Part shown: piece after piece, positions 32,019-39,488 of the stretch
Layout of the letters: each line of letters begins with the position of its first letter
Numbering within the stretch: the first letter of the stretch is position 1
NCBI RefSeq assembly: GCF_022808695.1
Contig: NZ_JAKZKW010000003.1
Span: 1 to 64,000 of the forward strand
Direction of reading: 5' to 3'
DNA: 64,000 bases
DNA from: Fundidesulfovibrio soli
GTDB lineage: Bacteria > Desulfobacterota > Desulfovibrionia > Desulfovibrionales > Desulfovibrionaceae
Translations under genes and position numbers: made by a program
Notes under the pieces: model-generated
Database searches by the model: none
Told to the model about the DNA's origin: nothing
Seen by the model: only the letters and a program-made list of their open reading frames with translations

Positions 32019-33101
32019 ATGATTCCGCGCATCCTGACCATCAACCCCGGCTCCACAAGCACCCGTGCCACGCTCTTCGAGGGCGGGGCCTGCCTGCGCG
32101 ACGTGGAGATCGCCCACCCCCAGGCGGAGCTGGCGGGCTTCCCGTGCGTCATGGACCAACTGGGCTACCGTCTGGAGGCCCTGGCCGGGCACCTGGGCGA
32201 CGTGGGCCGCCTGGACGCCGTGGCCGGGCGGGGCGGGTTCCTGCGGCCCATCCCCGGCGGTGTCTACGCCGTATCCCAGGCCATGCTGGACGAGCTGGCC
32301 CAGGCCCCGCACGGCGAGCACGCCAGCAACCTGGGCGCCTTCCTGGCCGTGGACTTCGCCCGGCGCGCGGGCTGCCCGGCCTTCGTGGTGGACCCGGTGG
32401 CCACTGACGAACTCGACGACGTCTCCCGCCTGACCGGCCTGCCGGAAATTTCCCGCCGCACCATCTTCCACGCCCTGGGCCAGCGCGGGGCCGCGCGCGA
32501 GGCCGCCGCCCGCCTGGGCCTGCGGTATGAGGATGGCCGCTTCGTGGTGGCCCACCTGGGCGGGGGCATCTCCGTGGGCGCGCACCGCCTGGGGCGCGTG
32601 GCGGATGTGACCAACGCCATGGACGGGGAGGGCCCCTTCAGCCCGGAGCGCTCGGGCGCGCTGCCCCTGCTGCCCGTGCTGGATCTGCTGGACAGCGGCG
32701 TGCACTCCATCTGCTCCCTGCGCCGGGCCGTGACCACCCAGGCCGGGCTCACGGCCCACCTGGGCGTGAGCGACCTGCGCAAGGTGGAGGCCATGATCGA
32801 GGCCGGCGACGCCAAGGCCGCGAGGGTGTTCGAGGCCTTGGCCTACAACATCGCCAAGCACGCTGCCTCCATGCTCCCGGCCCTGCGCGGCCCGGCCGAC
32901 GCCATCGTGCTCACCGGGGGCATGGCCCGCAGCAAGCGGCTCATGGAGGCCCTCGAGGGTCTGCTCGGCGGCCTGGCCCGGGTGGAGGTGGTCACCGGCG
33001 TGGAGGAGATGTCCTCCATGTGCCGGGGCGCGCTGCTGGCCCTCAAGGGCGAGCTGCCCGTGCAGGCCTATCCGCCGGGAGCGGAGGACGCCGGGTTGTG
33101 A
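32019..33101 (+). CDS. buk: Butyrate kinase (acetokinase family)
   Basis: 360 residues, the family's usual length. Phosphate-binding NPGSTSTRATLFEG at the N-terminus, then VAHLGGGISVGAHRLGRVADVTNAMDGEGPFSPERSG in the centre (adenosine/phosphate loops; AMDGEGPF is typical of butyrate rather than acetate kinases) and VLTGGMARSK near the C-terminus. It interconverts acyl phosphate and ADP with fatty acid and ATP, perhaps acting on branched-chain acyl phosphates from amino-acid degradation. No phosphotransbutyrylase gene is in the window. No convincing RBS is seen. The stop overlaps the next gene's GTG start. Confidence 0.93.
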   Translation: MIPRILTINPGSTSTRATLFEGGACLRDVEIAHPQAELAGFPCVMDQLGYRLEALAGHLGDVGRLDAVAGRGGFLRPIPGGVYAVSQAMLDELAQAPHGEHASNLGAFLAVDFARRAGCPAFVVDPVATDELDDVSRLTGLPEISRRTIFHALGQRGAAREAAARLGLRYEDGRFVVAHLGGGISVGAHRLGRVADVTNAMDGEGPFSPERSGALPLLPVLDLLDSGVHSICSLRRAVTTQAGLTAHLGVSDLRKVEAMIEAGDAKAARVFEALAYNIAKHAASMLPALRGPADAIVLTGGMARSKRLMEALEGLLGGLARVEVVTGVEEMSSMCRGALLALKGELPVQAYPPGAEDAGL

Positions 33102-34603
33102 GGGCGCTCGCGGTCTGCTGCCTGGCGTTGTTCTGCCTCGTTTCATCCCTTCCTCCAGCTTTCGGCGCTTCGCAGGCTCAAATCCAGGCTCAAGCGCAGA
33201 CTCCGGCACAGACTCCGGCGCAGGCCCCGGCGAAGCCCTCCACCAAAGCACCCGCCCGAGACAAGCCCGCATTCAATCCCGTGCCGATCCCGCTGGAGGC
33301 TTCGCCCACGGAGCCAGCCGGTTCCGGGGAGGCCCCGGTGCCCCGCGCGGCCAAGCCCGAAGCCCGCGATCAGTCGCCCGTCCCTCCGGCCGCAGCCCCC
33401 GGGGCCACGGCGCAGAAGATGGCCGGACCGCCCTACGAGCGCCCCCTGGCCCTCCAGGCATCGCGCATCCTGCCCAAAAAGCTGCTCACTGGCCCCCACC
33501 ACAGGGTGGAGGAGGCCGTGGAGAACGACGGCTACATGAACACCTACACCGTGCGCTCCCGCTACGGGGACTACCGCGTGGCCTCCACGGCGCTGCTGGC
33601 CGTGCGGGTGGACGAGTTCGCGGCCATGGCCGCCATGGACAAGGTGCAGGGGGCCTCCGAGTTCGGGCGCGGCGTGTGGGACGGCGGGGTCAGCCTGGTG
33701 GAGGGCGTGAAGAACCTGGTGCTGCACCCCGTAGACAGCGTGGAGAACGCGGCCTCGGGCGTGGGCACGCTCTTCAACCGCGCCGGGGACAGCATGTCCG
33801 CCGACGCGTCCAGCAAATACGAGGACTCCACCGGGGCCAAGCTCACGGGCTTTGCCTCCACCCGGCGCGAATACGCCAAGGAGTTCGGCGTGGACCCCTA
33901 TTCCACCAACGAGCGCATGCAGGGGAAGCTCGATTCCGTGACCAAGGCCGGCTACGCGGGGGGGCTGACCTCCATGGGCCTCAAGGCGCTCATCCCCGGG
34001 GGCATCGGCATCGCGGTCTCCTCGGTGAGCGGCGTGCACTGGCTGGGCACGGTTGACCTGACCCAGCCCCCGCTGGAGCTGCGCGTGCGCAACCGCCGCA
34101 AGCTGGCCGAGATGGGCGTGGAGGAGTCCGCCATCGGAGCCTTCATGGACAACGCCGAGTTCACGCCCACGCAGCAGAGCCTGCTGGTCAAGGCCCTGGG
34201 GGACCTGGGCCGCAAGAACGGGCTCACGGCCTACGTGCGGCTGGCCGCGCGCACCCACAACCAGGACCAGGCCCTCTTCCGCCAGCGCATGGCCCAGATG
34301 TACGCGGGCTACCACCGCGCCGTGGCCCATGTGGACGGCTTCCTCCCCCTGGGGGACCTGGTGGCGGCCAGGAACGCCAAGGGCGCGCTGGTGCTGTGCT
34401 ACCCGCTGGACCACCTCTGCTGGACGGAGAACGTGGCCCGGATGGCGGCCCGGGCGGCCAAGGCATCGCGGGAGCGGGGCGGCTGCCCGGTGGAGCTGTG
34501 GGTCACCGGGACGGTGAGCGCCGCGGTGCGGGAGAACCTGGAGAAGTCCGGCTGGACCGTAAAGGAGAAGACCGGGAAGACGCTTCTGGGGGAGGCGATG
34601 TAG
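33098..34603 (+). CDS. Exported orphan protein translationally coupled to butyrate kinase
   Basis: Starting at GTG 33098 (overlap GTGA with the kinase stop, GGAGGA upstream), 501 residues. Signal peptide (about 1-24, ALAVCCLALFCLVSSLPPAFG), then a low-complexity Ala/Gln/Pro linker with QAQ and TPA repeats (about 25-115), then a globular part. That part contains a Gly-rich helical segment (EFGRGVWDGGVSLVEGVKNLVLHP), a hydrophobic stretch around 310-335 (GGLTSMGLKALIPGGIGIAVSSV) and a C-terminal alpha/beta region with a YPLDHLCW cysteine motif. No family recognised. The secreted nature and coupling to a cytoplasmic kinase are odd. Confidence 0.75.
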   Translation: MRALAVCCLALFCLVSSLPPAFGASQAQIQAQAQTPAQTPAQAPAKPSTKAPARDKPAFNPVPIPLEASPTEPAGSGEAPVPRAAKPEARDQSPVPPAAAPGATAQKMAGPPYERPLALQASRILPKKLLTGPHHRVEEAVENDGYMNTYTVRSRYGDYRVASTALLAVRVDEFAAMAAMDKVQGASEFGRGVWDGGVSLVEGVKNLVLHPVDSVENAASGVGTLFNRAGDSMSADASSKYEDSTGAKLTGFASTRREYAKEFGVDPYSTNERMQGKLDSVTKAGYAGGLTSMGLKALIPGGIGIAVSSVSGVHWLGTVDLTQPPLELRVRNRRKLAEMGVEESAIGAFMDNAEFTPTQQSLLVKALGDLGRKNGLTAYVRLAARTHNQDQALFRQRMAQMYAGYHRAVAHVDGFLPLGDLVAARNAKGALVLCYPLDHLCWTENVARMAARAAKASRERGGCPVELWVTGTVSAAVRENLEKSGWTVKEKTGKTLLGEAM

Positions 34604-34745
34604 GGCCGGGGCATCTTCATCGCGAGCCAAGGGGGCCGTCTCTCCACGACGTTGTTGCGCCATTGTGAAGAGGCGGGTACTTTTGGCCAACCCCGTCCCG
34701 GTCTCCAGCGCCAGCAACCGTCAACCTGGCAGACCTTCCCGGGCC

Positions 34746-34802
34746 GGGCCATCGCCCGTCGTGCCAGGGCGAATCCTCAGGATCACAACCCAGGGGGATC
34801 GC
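34746..34802 (+). promoter_or_regulatory. Conserved leader of secreted paralogue 1 with RBS-sequestering potential
   Basis: 49 nt here (34746-34794) are identical to 37260-37308, and after one mismatch the next 17 nt through the start codon are identical again. ATCCTC (34773-34778) can pair with GGGGAT (34794-34799) that overlaps the ribosome-binding site, with one G-U pair. An upstream CGCCC/GGGCG hairpin is also conserved. Confidence 0.6.
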
Positions 34803-36989
34803 ATGGTGACGTTGTATCCTCATTCCAGCGGCCGACTGTCTTCAGGCGCCTCCCTGCGTGGCGAAATCAGACCATCTTTCAGGCTGCCGACGGGTTGGTT
34901 GCGTTGCACATTGGTGCTTTGGGTTTGCCTCTGGTGCGTGGCGACCTGCGAAGCGGCAGCCGATGACGAGTTGTTGCTGCTGACCAGCGGCGCCAGGGCC
35001 GCGAGCGGCCCTTCCTCCGTGGTGAGGACCATAGGTCCAGGGGGCGGCGCCGTGCAGGCGGGCAAGGTTGGCGTCACCATCCCCCCGGGGGCGCTCGCCT
35101 CCCCGGTCCCCGTCACGCTGAAGCGGACCGCACCGGGGGCGGACTTCGGCAACCAGTCCGCCGCATGGTCCTACACGCTGGTGATGCCGCAACTCCAGGT
35201 CGGCCAGGACATCCCAGTGGTCTTCTCAGGCTTCGGTGGACCTGACCGGCGGGCGGCTGTCGCCCTGGCCGACTCGTCCACCACCTCCGGCCAGACGGTC
35301 GCGGTGCCCGCTCGGCTGGTTTGGGGCGATGTGGTCGCTGGCGCGCTGCGCTTCCATTTGCCCGCCGATGAACTCGCCGGGGGCGGTCAGGCCGCGGCTG
35401 CCATGGCCGCCGATACGGCCACGGCCTCGGGCGAGAAACGCAGTTTCAGCTGGTGGTCCGTCACCAACGTCGCACAGAAGACCAGCCAGCATTTCACGCT
35501 GGAATACCCCACCGCCATCATCGGGGTCAGCCCCGACGCGCCGGAGCGCATCCTGGCCGCCGCCGAGGATGCCTACCAGAAACTTGCCGACCTGCATTTC
35601 GACCTGCCAGGGTCGCTCAACTGGCCCATGTCCATCACTGTGAAATACGGCATGGGGGAACGTGAAGGGGAGACCGGAATCCCCCTGTCGGGCAAGAAAA
35701 ACAGCTACCTGAACCTCAGCGCGGACATCTGCGGCAGCGCGTCGTCCGAAAAGATGCGCACCACCGTGGGGCATGAAATATTCCACGCCATCCAGAGCGC
35801 CTACGACCCGCGCGGTTCCCTGACCATCCGCCACTCTTGGAGCACGCCGTATTTCCTGATGCTCTCCGAGGCCAGCTCCACGTGGTTCGAACGCAAGGTG
35901 ATGGGGGGCGGGGCGTATGTCTCCCCGCAGTTCCTCACCAACATGGATATGAAAAGCACGGGCCTGGAGATGTGGCAGGACAAGCCCGAGGCTCAGAACC
36001 TGGGCTACTGGGCTTCGGGGTTCCTGCGCTTCCTGACGGACAAATACCAGGACGCCTTCATCCTGACCCTGTGGCAGAAGGTGCGGGGCCAGAAAAATTC
36101 ATCCTTGGGCTATTCGGACCTGCGGGCGCTGATGGACGCCGTGGGCTCAGGCATCGACACCTCCTTCGCCTGGAATGACTTTGTGGGCAAGGTCGTCAGC
36201 GGCACCACGGGGTACTCAGGCTGGACGCTCCCCGCCAGCAACGCCGTCTGGTACAACGTCAACCCGTTCGCCGGCGTGTTTTCCGAGGACATCGCGCCGT
36301 TTTCGGCCCTGAAGTGGACAGCCATCTTCAATACGTCGCGCACCAGCATGAAATATATGTTCAATGTGACCGCGGAGTCACCTGACATCTCCTATACGCT
36401 TTACAAAGCCAATGATGCGAACGGACCCTTCACGTTTGTGACCTCGCTCAAGCCGTTCACGCCGCAGACTGTCACGGTTGGGGTGGGCGATATTTATGTC
36501 ATGGCTGTTGCGAACAGCGATGCCGCAAGTCCGTATAAGACGCGTTCAACTGCTCAGGTGATCGTGGGTAATTCCGAGGTGTGCCGTTTTTGCCCGGACG
36601 TTTCCCGTGATGCGGTGTTGGATGTCATGCCAGGTGGATACAAGGTCTGGTGGGATAGTACCCGCGAGTATCAACAGGCTGTGGAGTATTACTGGGATTA
36701 TGCGTTGGGAAATGTTTATTTCTGTGCGTGCTATTGGCCTGGGTCCAATTATCTTAAAAGCAGGGTGACTTTTTTTGAAAATGGAGCCAATGCTGCTGTC
36801 GATCAATATGATGAATCCGGGCAGCGACATGGACGAAGGACGATTTATTACGAGACCGGGGGCGTTTGGTACATTGAACAGTATGTGCATGGCAGAATCC
36901 AGGCCAGATCCTTTTATACTCCGAGCGGTGAGCTTTACTGGCGTTGCACGTATGATGCACAAGGGGCGGAGACGTGCGGCGCTCCCTGA
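34803..36989 (+). CDS. Secreted multi-domain protein with HEXXH motif, paralogue 1
   Basis: 728 residues. Signal segment near residues 35-52 after a long N-region, so secretion is inferred. A beta domain (about 55-200, VGVTIPPGALASPVPVTLKRT, as in ZU5-type modules) is followed by a central domain with HEIFH at residues 324-328 and E356 in EASSTWFER, which fits a gluzincin zinc-peptidase pattern (HEXXH then downstream Glu). A CRFCPD motif and C-terminal MORN/YwqK-like repeats (GQRHGRRTIYYETGG and following) complete it. The first two thirds are high-GC; the last third (from about 36300) is clearly AT-richer. Function unknown; possibly a cell-surface or secreted protease. Confidence 0.75.
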   Translation: MVTLYPHSSGRLSSGASLRGEIRPSFRLPTGWLRCTLVLWVCLWCVATCEAAADDELLLLTSGARAASGPSSVVRTIGPGGGAVQAGKVGVTIPPGALASPVPVTLKRTAPGADFGNQSAAWSYTLVMPQLQVGQDIPVVFSGFGGPDRRAAVALADSSTTSGQTVAVPARLVWGDVVAGALRFHLPADELAGGGQAAAAMAADTATASGEKRSFSWWSVTNVAQKTSQHFTLEYPTAIIGVSPDAPERILAAAEDAYQKLADLHFDLPGSLNWPMSITVKYGMGEREGETGIPLSGKKNSYLNLSADICGSASSEKMRTTVGHEIFHAIQSAYDPRGSLTIRHSWSTPYFLMLSEASSTWFERKVMGGGAYVSPQFLTNMDMKSTGLEMWQDKPEAQNLGYWASGFLRFLTDKYQDAFILTLWQKVRGQKNSSLGYSDLRALMDAVGSGIDTSFAWNDFVGKVVSGTTGYSGWTLPASNAVWYNVNPFAGVFSEDIAPFSALKWTAIFNTSRTSMKYMFNVTAESPDISYTLYKANDANGPFTFVTSLKPFTPQTVTVGVGDIYVMAVANSDAASPYKTRSTAQVIVGNSEVCRFCPDVSRDAVLDVMPGGYKVWWDSTREYQQAVEYYWDYALGNVYFCACYWPGSNYLKSRVTFFENGANAAVDQYDESGQRHGRRTIYYETGGVWYIEQYVHGRIQARSFYTPSGELYWRCTYDAQGAETCGAP

Positions 36990-37259
36990 ATGTTCGTGAC
37001 GCTCGTTGGGTTTCCCGCTGTGTCCTGATGGCCTCAGCCGTTCAGAAGCAATAATAAGGGCCGTCGTCCTGCGATAGGTTCTATTGTTTACATTGCGTTA
37101 AGCAGCGCGTTCACTCGCGCTGCCGTTGCGATCGTTGTTCTGGCTGGTGCCAGAGGCGGCTTAGTGGTTGCTCATGCCCGCCAAGATGGTTATTTTTGAA
37201 CCAGTCCAATTCAGCTCCCACTGCCCGGTCCCTTCCCCCGGGCTCTAGGAGCAAGGAAA
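36990..37259. other. Spacer between the secreted paralogues, no gene seen
   Basis: 270 nt of moderate GC, continuing the AT-richer composition of the preceding gene's end. No terminator with a T-tract and no RBS-start pair was found. It might hold a promoter for paralogue 2 (for example TTGTTTACATTG near 37085), but this is weak. Confidence 0.4.
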
Positions 37260-37316
37260 GGGCCATCGCCCGTCGTGCCAGGGCGAATCCTCAGGATCAC
37301 AACCCAGGAGGATCGC
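37260..37316 (+). promoter_or_regulatory. Conserved leader of secreted paralogue 2 with RBS-sequestering potential
   Basis: Second copy of the leader described at 34746. ATCCTC (37287-37292) pairs perfectly with GAGGAT (37308-37313) at the ribosome-binding site, 3 nt from the ATG, leaving a 15-nt loop. CGCCC/GGGCG (37267-37271 with 37281-37285) forms an alternative upstream hairpin. The sole difference between the copies falls in this pairing and is compensated by wobble. Confidence 0.6.
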
Positions 37317-39488
37317 ATGGTGACGTGGTTTCCTACCCTCGACGGCAGTCCGCCGTCCGTGTCCATCCGTCAAGGCGGAATCCTCCGCAGCTTTCCATTG
37401 TTACGCCTCCTGCTGGGGCACGCTTTTGCGCTGCTGGCCATGATCGGCTTTTCCGCCCCAGGCGCGGCGGCCGCGGACGACGACCTCCTGCTGCTGACCA
37501 GCGGGGCGCGCGCCGCCGGCGGCCCCTCCGTGGTCACCAAGACCATCGGCCCGTCCGGCGGGGTCCTGCGGGCGGGCAGGGTGGTCGTGACCATCCCGCC
37601 GGGGGCTCTGGCCTCCCCGGCGCAGGTTACGCTCAGGCGAACCGCGCCGGGCGCGGACTTCGGAAAGCAGTCCGGGGTGTGGTCCTACTCGCTGGAGATC
37701 CCTCTGCCGCAGGCCGGGCAGGACATCGACGTGGCCCTCTTCGGCCTGGGCGCGCCCGACCGGCAGGCCGCCGTGGCCCTGGGCGACTCCAGCACCATCT
37801 CCGGGCAGACCGACGCCGCTCCCGCCAGGGTGGTCCGGGGCAATGTGGTGTCCGGGGTGCTGCGCTTCAAGCTGCCGGCGCACGACCTCTCCCAGGGCCT
37901 GCTGGCGGGGGGCAACGGCGACGGGCACACCGCCGCCTGGTGGACCCTGGCCGGGTATGCAAGCAAGAGCAGCCAGCACTTCACGGTAGAATACCCCGCA
38001 GCCGTGCTCGCGGTGAGCGCCGACGCCCCGGACCGCGTCCTGGCCGCCGCCGAGGACGCCTACCAGAAGCTTTCCGACCTGAATTTCGACCTGGTTGGCT
38101 CGCTCGCCTGGCCCATGCCCATCTCCGTCGGCTACGCCACGCATGACGAACCCTGCCCGGCGGGCCTGCCCCTCTCCGGCAAGGGCAAGGGCTATCTGGT
38201 GCTGAACGCGGACCTCTGCGCCGCCGCCTCCTCAGACGCCATGCGCGCCGCCGTGGGACACGGGCTGTTCCACGCCGTGCAGGCCGCCTACGACCCACGC
38301 TCCACCCTGGCCGTGCGCCACTCGGCCGCCGATCCGCACTTCGCCATGCTCGGGGAGGCCAGCTCCACCTGGTTCGAGCGCAGGATACTCGGCGGAGGGT
38401 ACGTCTCCCCGAACTTCCTCGCCAACGTGGGCCTGAAGGGCACGGGCCTGGAGGCCTGGCAGGGCACGCCCCAGGCCCAGGCCCAGGCCCGCAATCTGGG
38501 CTACTGGGCCTCGGGCTTCGTGCGCCACCTCGTCGACCAGCTCCAGGGCCAGGTCGTCCTCGGGCTGTGGCAGAAGGTGCACAACCAAGCCAGCCCCTCG
38601 CCGGGCTACTCCGACCTGCGCGCGCTCATCGATGCCGCCGGGGCGGGCGGCGTCGCGGCGTTGGCCTGGGCTGACTACATGGGCAAGCTCTTCAGCGGCA
38701 ACACGGGCTATGCCGGCTGGCCGGTGCCCGCCAGCGACGCGGTCTGGCACAGCTCCGACCCGCCGCCGGGCCGCCTGACCGGCAGCCTCGCCCCGTTCTC
38801 GGCCCTGAAGTGGACGGCGTTCATCGACTCCGTGCCCTCCGGCGTGCAGTACATGCTGAGCCCCATCTCCGAGACGCCGGACATGACCTATGTGCTCTAC
38901 AAGGGCACGAACGCCAACGGGCCGTTCAGCTATGTGGCCACGCTCAAGATGTTCAACCCGCACATGCTCGCGGCCGCGCCCGGCGACGTGTACGTGATCG
39001 CCGCCGTCAACGGGGACTCCAAGAGCCCCTACACGACGGTCTCCGGGGCGGACCTCATGCTGGGCGACGCGGCCAAGTGCCGCTTCTGCCCGGAGGTGCC
39101 GGACGACGCGCCCATGCTGATCTCGGAGGACGGGCTCTCCCGCTGGTGGGTGGACGAGTCGCACCTGATCACGCTGGCCCAGGAGCACTATCAGGACCCG
39201 CAGTGGACGAAATTGTGGTCGTTCTACTGTAGCTGGCCGAACGTGGCGGCATTCAAGACCGGCGTGAGATTCCGCCTGGACGGCACCACGGTCTACGATA
39301 TCCAGCACTACGACCAGCAGGGCAGTCTGCACGGGGTCTGCAAGGAGTTCTATGAGGCCGGGAGCATTCACTTTATCCAAACATACTCCCACGGACTGAT
39401 CCTGACCAGGACGGAGTACGGCCCGGACGGGGCGGTCATCCAGTATTGCACCTTCGACGGGCAGGGAGTGGCGACGTGCACGCCGTAG
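37317..39488 (+). CDS. Secreted paralogue 2, degenerate HEXXH motif
   Basis: 723 residues, collinear with paralogue 1: signal segment (about 25-50), beta domain (VVVTIPPGALASPAQVTLRRT), central domain, CRFCPEV motif and C-terminal MORN-like repeats (GSLHGVCKEFYEAGS and following). The metal-binding motif reads HGLFH at 315-319, so the catalytic glutamate is replaced by glycine (codon GGG at 38262) while both histidines and the downstream E347 (EASSTWFER) are kept. If paralogue 1 is a zinc peptidase, this one should be inactive but could still bind metal. Uniformly high GC, unlike the end of paralogue 1. Confidence 0.78.
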   Translation: MVTWFPTLDGSPPSVSIRQGGILRSFPLLRLLLGHAFALLAMIGFSAPGAAAADDDLLLLTSGARAAGGPSVVTKTIGPSGGVLRAGRVVVTIPPGALASPAQVTLRRTAPGADFGKQSGVWSYSLEIPLPQAGQDIDVALFGLGAPDRQAAVALGDSSTISGQTDAAPARVVRGNVVSGVLRFKLPAHDLSQGLLAGGNGDGHTAAWWTLAGYASKSSQHFTVEYPAAVLAVSADAPDRVLAAAEDAYQKLSDLNFDLVGSLAWPMPISVGYATHDEPCPAGLPLSGKGKGYLVLNADLCAAASSDAMRAAVGHGLFHAVQAAYDPRSTLAVRHSAADPHFAMLGEASSTWFERRILGGGYVSPNFLANVGLKGTGLEAWQGTPQAQAQARNLGYWASGFVRHLVDQLQGQVVLGLWQKVHNQASPSPGYSDLRALIDAAGAGGVAALAWADYMGKLFSGNTGYAGWPVPASDAVWHSSDPPPGRLTGSLAPFSALKWTAFIDSVPSGVQYMLSPISETPDMTYVLYKGTNANGPFSYVATLKMFNPHMLAAAPGDVYVIAAVNGDSKSPYTTVSGADLMLGDAAKCRFCPEVPDDAPMLISEDGLSRWWVDESHLITLAQEHYQDPQWTKLWSFYCSWPNVAAFKTGVRFRLDGTTVYDIQHYDQQGSLHGVCKEFYEAGSIHFIQTYSHGLILTRTEYGPDGAVIQYCTFDGQGVATCTP

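Follow-up and report, generated by a model that had tools for sequence, protein, structure and literature searches.

Two tandem genes in Fundidesulfovibrio soli (assembly GCF_022808695.1) raise the question of why the sequence around their start codons is almost the same when the genes themselves have diverged strongly. Both lie on the + strand of the analyzed window, the 64,000 nt stretch at positions 1 to 64,000 of contig NZ_JAKZKW010000003.1, and each begins within a 67-nt leader (34746-34812 for the upstream gene, copy 1, and 37260-37326 for the downstream gene, copy 2; Table 1). Comparison of the two leaders revealed 66/67 identical bases, the single difference being at leader column 50, where copy 1 has G and copy 2 has A, which confirmed a near-identity that had been noticed in a sequence-only reading of the window. 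The explanation to which we give somewhat better than even credence is that the leader is a cis-acting translational control element, common to two tandem metalloprotease-like genes, whose predicted fold hides the ribosome-binding site (RBS).

Near-identical leaders of two diverged paralogues

The identity block has sharp bounds between the paralogues. On the 5' side of the leaders the copies match at 61/135 aligned bases, and on the 3' side the first 40 aligned codons show 33% residue identity and 49% base identity; the block stops at column 67, and the long hairpin predicted within it stops at column 65. Overall, the two proteins share 51.6% of their amino acids and the third codon positions are 52.7% identical, a divergence which marks the copies as old paralogues. 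With third positions taken as neutral, a simple binomial gives a probability of 1e-17 for at least 66 matches in 67, and the leader identity is therefore not a product of drift.

The leader occurs twice in the genome, each time before one of the paralogues, and the next match has an E value of 0.04 over 26 bases, which rules out a repetitive extragenic palindromic (REP)-like element. Protein-coding constraint was also ruled out as the cause of the conservation, as no frame is consistently constrained: in the ATG frame all codon differences are nonsynonymous (two between copies 1 and 2, two between copy 2 and the sister-species leader described below, four between copy 1 and the latter, and no synonymous ones), while in one other frame the two differences between copies 1 and 2 are synonymous and the three codon differences between copy 2 and the sister species are not.

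Conservation of the leader in a sister species

Among the seven genomes of the genus that were searched, one other, that of a sister species (G001), carries a convincing leader. It is located directly before a gene orthologous to copy 2 (80.4% amino acid identity to copy 2 versus 49.8% to copy 1) and is identical to the leaders of copy 2 and copy 1 at 64/67 and 63/67 bases, respectively. The flanks are 72-79% identical between the species, and the leader is conserved above either of them. In particular, the copy 1 leader (63/67) exceeds its upstream flank, which matches that of G001 at 101/128 bases (21/25 nearest the leader and 79/102 in the remainder; Fisher p = 0.007), and the copy 2 leader (64/67) exceeds the sequence downstream of it (93/130; p = 3e-5). 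The three differences between the G001 and copy 2 leaders, at columns 38, 40 and 42, all fall inside an 8-nt predicted apical loop.

Predicted fold and occlusion of the Shine-Dalgarno sequence

A small hairpin (columns 1-12) followed by a long one (columns 13-65) is predicted in all three leaders, with fold energies of -29.1 to -29.9 kcal/mol. The predicted 3' arm of the long hairpin includes the Shine-Dalgarno (SD) sequence, the start codon and codons 2-3, and both SD and start codon are base-paired in the predominant predicted structure, as in a leader that masks its RBS. The pairing of ATCCTC with GGGGAT in copy 1 or GAGGAT in copy 2, with the only substitution turning an A-U into a G-U pair, had been put forward in the sequence-only reading and recurs in the predicted folds. 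The hairpin extends past the stem proposed there, with the added segments GUC/GAC, GCCA/UGGU and GCGA/UCGC, and would therefore bury the start codon too. All 22 predicted pairs are kept in the three leaders, and changes that are confined to the loop or keep the pairs fit selection on pairing.

As to overall stability, dinucleotide shuffles folded as well as the 67-nt leaders of copy 1, copy 2 and G001 in 6, 4 and 3 of 200 cases, respectively, and as well as the 97-nt stretches in 81, 11 and 10 of 200. Relative to shuffled sequence the predicted folding is thus moderately unusual, copy 1 not being unusual at 97 nt.

The cost of opening the SD was calculated for 70 nt around the start codon and amounts to 9.61, 9.94 and 10.32 kcal/mol for copy 1, copy 2 and G001. 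The background for this value was drawn from 20 stretches of 20 kb plus the window, in which 224 open reading frames (ORFs) were crudely called and the 119 starts with a 5-base SD were kept. Its median is 3.44 kcal/mol, and 3, 0 and 0 of the 119 starts reach the cost of copy 1, copy 2 and G001, respectively, one of the 119 rows being copy 2 itself and some other high values possibly being miscalled starts. In a longer context (179-181 nt) the cost is 7.84, 9.22 and 9.44 kcal/mol in the same order. Blocking the ATCCTC arm of copy 2 lowers it from 9.94 to 0.06 kcal/mol.

Predicted order of folding and proposed mechanism

An alternative CGCCC/GGGCG hairpin, described in the sequence-only reading as lying upstream, can indeed form, but it does not free the RBS: it excludes the outer part of the long hairpin, whereas the stem between ATCCTC and the SD persists beside it. 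The fold that contains it has an energy of -21.5 to -23.9 kcal/mol, against -29.1 to -29.9 kcal/mol for the masking fold. When nascent prefixes are folded, CGCCC/GGGCG belongs to the best structure from about 34 to 54 nt and the masking hairpin appears from about 57 nt in all three leaders.

The conservation of the leader, its placement and its presence in the sister species are direct observations. Fold, order of folding and occlusion are model predictions, and we infer that the leader represses translation, that this repression can be relieved and that both genes, which have a promoter-like site in common, come under joint control. Once the mRNA is complete, its 5' arm (GUC..GCCA..GCGA.AUCCUC) would pair with the 3' arm, where SD, start codon and codons 2-3 are located, leaving translation off by default. 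During transcription the CGCCC/GGGCG hairpin would form first, while either the 5' GGG or the following AGGA would sequester part of the anti-SD arm, and this early structure would yield to the masking hairpin once the SD and the start codon are made. Translation would most likely require a factor that keeps AUCCUC off the SD; a brief window for early ribosomes is possible, though less likely than such a factor.

Evidence weighing against a control element

Several observations count against a role of the leader in translational control. The background of SD opening costs comes from crude gene calling, and 105 of the 224 ORFs, having no usable 5-nt SD, were dropped from it. When the 47 upstream bases were shuffled and the SD side was kept fixed, 30, 6 and 2 of 300 sequences masked the SD equally in copy 1, copy 2 and G001, respectively, so that copy 1 taken alone is unexceptional; by minimum free energy alone, 10, 9 and 9 of the 119 genome starts fold as well. 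In the 179-nt context of copy 1 the anti-SD arm is predicted to pair with itself and the SD with the coding sequence, the opening cost still being 7.84 kcal/mol. There is no covariation, 21/22 pairs being invariant and none having both sides changed among three near-identical sequences, and the three loop changes lie within 5 nt and are possibly one event. The boundary of conservation is unsharp on the 5' side in G001, where the adjoining 25 bases are largely conserved too. Prefix folds have the SD partly paired already at 52 nt, which leaves little room for early access, and an early-ribosome window would therefore depend on kinetics alone. Finally, nine homologous genes elsewhere, in seven genomes and including the second paralogue of G001, lack the leader.

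Distribution of the leader outside the sister species

The search for the leader ahead of homologues in related genomes, which the sequence-only reading had suggested, was thus positive in one sister species and negative for nine other homologues. Across the whole of those nine loci the best local leader score was 24 of a possible 134, compared with 119 in G001, and the six homologues with an assignable SD have opening costs of 1.56-5.03 kcal/mol. Within the family, 288 genomes were searched with BLAST and with a strictly filtered covariance model, and neither yielded a further convincing leader. Besides G000 and G001, BLAST with the leader picked out three genomes, all of one different genus, at E values of 4e-5 to 6e-4, and five weaker matches at E 0.04. 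A scan of genome contigs returned two remote relatives only, with 27-28% identity, which were not used further.

The three better matches (loci L039, L040 and L041, near 1480-1560) precede a small gene that looks like one for a c-type cytochrome. They share CCCGTCGTG and the GGAGGATCGCATG start context (SD/ATG) with the leader studied here. In all three the anti-SD arm is not in place, the SD is not strongly masked (1.0-4.9 kcal/mol), and the strictly filtered covariance model left them unreported at E <= 0.05; these sequences were consequently discarded as relatives.

Possible leader recombination and the rival explanations

The strongest rival, which we regard as unlikely but deserving serious weight, holds that recombination between the tandem repeats, by gene conversion or crossover, mainly explains the leader identity, the fold being incidental or mildly selected. 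In the gene tree copy 1 falls outside the pair formed by copy 2 and the G001 gene (support 100/100, with the bootstrap not fully settled), and the gene split therefore predates the species split, unless copy 1 was acquired later. Despite this branching, the leaders of copies 1 and 2 are one change apart and those of copy 2 and G001 three. The G001 locus, moreover, joins a copy-1-like upstream flank to the orthologue of copy 2, with the architecture switching in or at the leader; its promoter-leader spacer matches that of copy 1 at 49/61 bases and that of copy 2 at 27/61. Most simply, copy 1 would have been lost from G001 through a crossover between two leaders. The opposite course, a gain on the lineage of the window by recombination in the leader, is possible, and gene conversion between the leaders is plausible. 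A relative-rate test is weak, if suggestive (P = 0.10 for at most one of four leader changes on the copy 1 branch). Recombination between paralogues leaves unexplained why the leader is conserved above its flanks between species: conversion accounts for paralogue identity but not for interspecies conservation, and selection on the leader is therefore still needed. The earlier proposal that the leader is kept under selection hence stands as regards its conservation above the flanks in G001, and is weakened by the possibility of gene conversion of the leader.

Both processes could also act together. It is conceivable, although we give it little credence, that promoter and leader form an expression site in which the masking hairpin also serves as a joint for recombination. 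Crossovers within the 67 bp of the leader would then swap or delete whole genes for secreted proteins behind a fixed promoter and a fixed translational lock, so that active (HExxH) and inactive (HGxxH) paralogues would be interchangeable under the same control.

A second rival takes the inverted repeat to act as DNA, as an operator at which a regulator would control both genes and which overlaps the start region by chance; we consider this improbable. The arms GCGA.ATCCTC / GAGGATCGC do form a dyad, and the interspecies changes lie between them. The copy 1 substitution, however, breaks the DNA dyad while keeping a G-U pair in the RNA, SD, start codon and codons 2-3 all fall on the 3' arm, and the promoter-like site lies 62-64 nt 5' of the leader. 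Each of the three leaders has this site, TTGC[GT]C-N17-TA[CT]TTT, at that distance on its 5' side; the + strand of the window contains it only at 34655 and 37168, and it is absent from 800,000 strand-bases of 20 other genome stretches, although, the pattern having been derived from these same loci, the counts are a consistency check and not a test. A generic sigma-70 scan reported neither of the two sites in the window. Within the 32 columns that contain the site the paralogues agree at 17, and its support comes from the hexamers and their spacing. The presence of the site before each leader suggests a joint duplication of promoter, leader and gene, after which the spacer between promoter-like site and leader, alike at 29/63 bases between the paralogues, was free to diverge.

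Control of the leader by a CsrA-type protein or a small RNA (sRNA) would be a version of the preferred explanation, translational control by the leader, with a named factor, and appears very unlikely in this specific form. The genome encodes CsrA (PF02599, E 1.5e-22) and each leader contains two or three GGA trinucleotides. The core motif of CsrA is ANGGA, and it is found in none of the three leaders. On the minus strand the genome contains nothing but short matches to the leader, with E values of 0.26 or above, no dedicated sRNA search having been made. The suggestion of a ligand- or sRNA-controlled switch operating through CGCCC/GGGCG accordingly found no backing in ligand or sRNA evidence, with the same limit on the sRNA search. 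A heat-opened RNA thermometer, also raised in the sequence-only reading, is scarcely credible, for although a single hairpin masks the SD as in a thermometer, a fully open SD has a predicted probability of 5e-8 to 2e-7 at 37 °C, which rises to no more than 2e-5 at 55 °C and to 4e-4 to 8e-4, still below 1e-3, at 70 °C.

Relation to known systems

The leader resembles the RBS-sequestering hairpins of 5' untranslated regions (riboswitches, thermometers and autoregulated leaders) in that SD and start codon are predicted to lie on the 3' side of a stable hairpin and that an alternative 5' hairpin lies upstream. It differs from this class in having no Rfam match at E <= 0.1 and in being too stable for a thermometer. 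The Rfam search covered 34400-37700; the best of three weak sub-threshold matches had an E value of 0.11, and all three (E <= 10) belong to unrelated families and were discarded. No curated aptamer family, and hence no described riboswitch class, matched in the same interval, and a limited literature search returned nothing on point for such a leader.

The maturation-protein leader of MS2 reportedly delays its masking co-transcriptionally. The present leader may be similar in that a different structure is predicted to precede the equilibrium masking fold; here, in contrast, the element belongs to a chromosomal gene pair and its predicted window is brief. A third parallel is the concerted evolution of tandem paralogues through gene conversion, with a near-identical segment and a recombinant architecture in G001. 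The identity in the present case, unlike there, consists of 67 leader bases with nearly no coding sequence, and the leader is also conserved between species. The leader is probably a new case of an already known type of control, one in which the history of recombination is unusual.

The two genes, their proteins and the locus

Table 1. Coordinates of the leaders, their predicted structural parts, the promoter-like sites and the two genes in the window
Feature	Position	Strand	Remarks
Promoter-like site, copy 1	34655..34683	+	TTGCGC-N17-TACTTT; ~63 nt 5' of leader
Leader, copy 1	34746..34812	+	66/67 to 37260-37326; 63/67 in G001; predicted fold -29.1 kcal/mol
5' hairpin, copy 1	34746..34757	+	predicted fold
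RBS-masking hairpin, copy 1	34758..34810	+	predicted fold
Anti-SD arm ATCCTC, copy 1	34773..34778	+	predicted pairing with 34794-34799
SD GGGGG, copy 1	34793..34797	+	5 nt before ATG 34803
Copy 1 gene	34803..36989	+	728 aa; probably secreted, putative metalloprotease; HEIFH at 35772-35786
Promoter-like site, copy 2	37168..37196	+	TTGCTC-N17-TATTTT; ~64 nt 5' of leader
Leader, copy 2	37260..37326	+	66/67 to copy 1; 64/67 to G001; predicted fold -29.9 kcal/mol
5' hairpin, copy 2	37260..37271	+	predicted fold
RBS-masking hairpin, copy 2	37272..37324	+	predicted fold
Anti-SD arm ATCCTC, copy 2	37287..37292	+	predicted fold
SD GGAGG, copy 2	37307..37311	+	opening cost 9.94 kcal/mol
Copy 2 gene	37317..39488	+	723 aa; probably secreted paralogue; HGLFH at 38259-38273, catalytic glutamate replaced

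Both proteins are probably secreted, judging from an N-terminal hydrophobic stretch. They match the NCBIfam model MXAN_6640_HExxH with E values of 3.8e-15 (56.4 bits, copy 1) and 2.1e-8 (34.2 bits, copy 2), both under the curated cut-off of 140, and by this cut-off neither would be assigned to the MXAN_6640 metalloprotease family. The HGLFH variant, which lacks the catalytic Glu, is present in copy 2 and in its G001 orthologue (L025 7994-10162), and HExxH is found in copy 1 and 8/9 other homologues, the pattern being unmatched in G084. The copy 2 lineage thus looks like a fixed, probably inactive paralogue. Of the protein structure models, the first was poor (mean predicted local distance difference test, pLDDT, 60.9) and the second partly usable (73.0). 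In the comparison with PDB structures the best matches were aminopeptidases with template modelling (TM) scores below 0.3, followed by small beta-sandwich domains (about 125 columns, 12-15% identity), and nothing was drawn from either; no solved relative was found by sequence at E <= 0.1.

The two genes are flanked by one gene that is present in 7/7 genus members searched and by another that reads as a DEAD-box helicase gene. The former (33020-34603) has no Pfam or NCBIfam match at E <= 0.1 and has two members in each of the seven genus genomes. In the five genus members other than G001 both neighbours are found close together, in the same short stretch and without a relative of the two genes between them, and no relative of either gene was found anywhere in those genomes at E <= 1e-5. 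In G001 a further gene (L025 10278-11075), which looks like one for a solute-binding protein, separates the copy 2 orthologue from the helicase-like gene, where the window has only 75 bases. Within the window, G+C content falls from about 70% to 49% across the 3' part of copy 1 and remains low through the next intergenic stretch (36250-37150), which may represent a foreign or relaxed segment.

Implications

If the leader acts as proposed, the pair, absent from 5/7 of the genus species searched, would be governed by an apparently undescribed translational lock common to two probably secreted proteins, only one of which has the metalloprotease motif intact. Regulation would then have been conserved base by base while the regulated proteins diverged, and the locus would provide a simple system for asking what opens a very stable RBS hairpin. 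Should recombination at the leader instead be the main cause of its identity, the locus would be a clean case of a regulatory repeat shaping the gene content of sister species.

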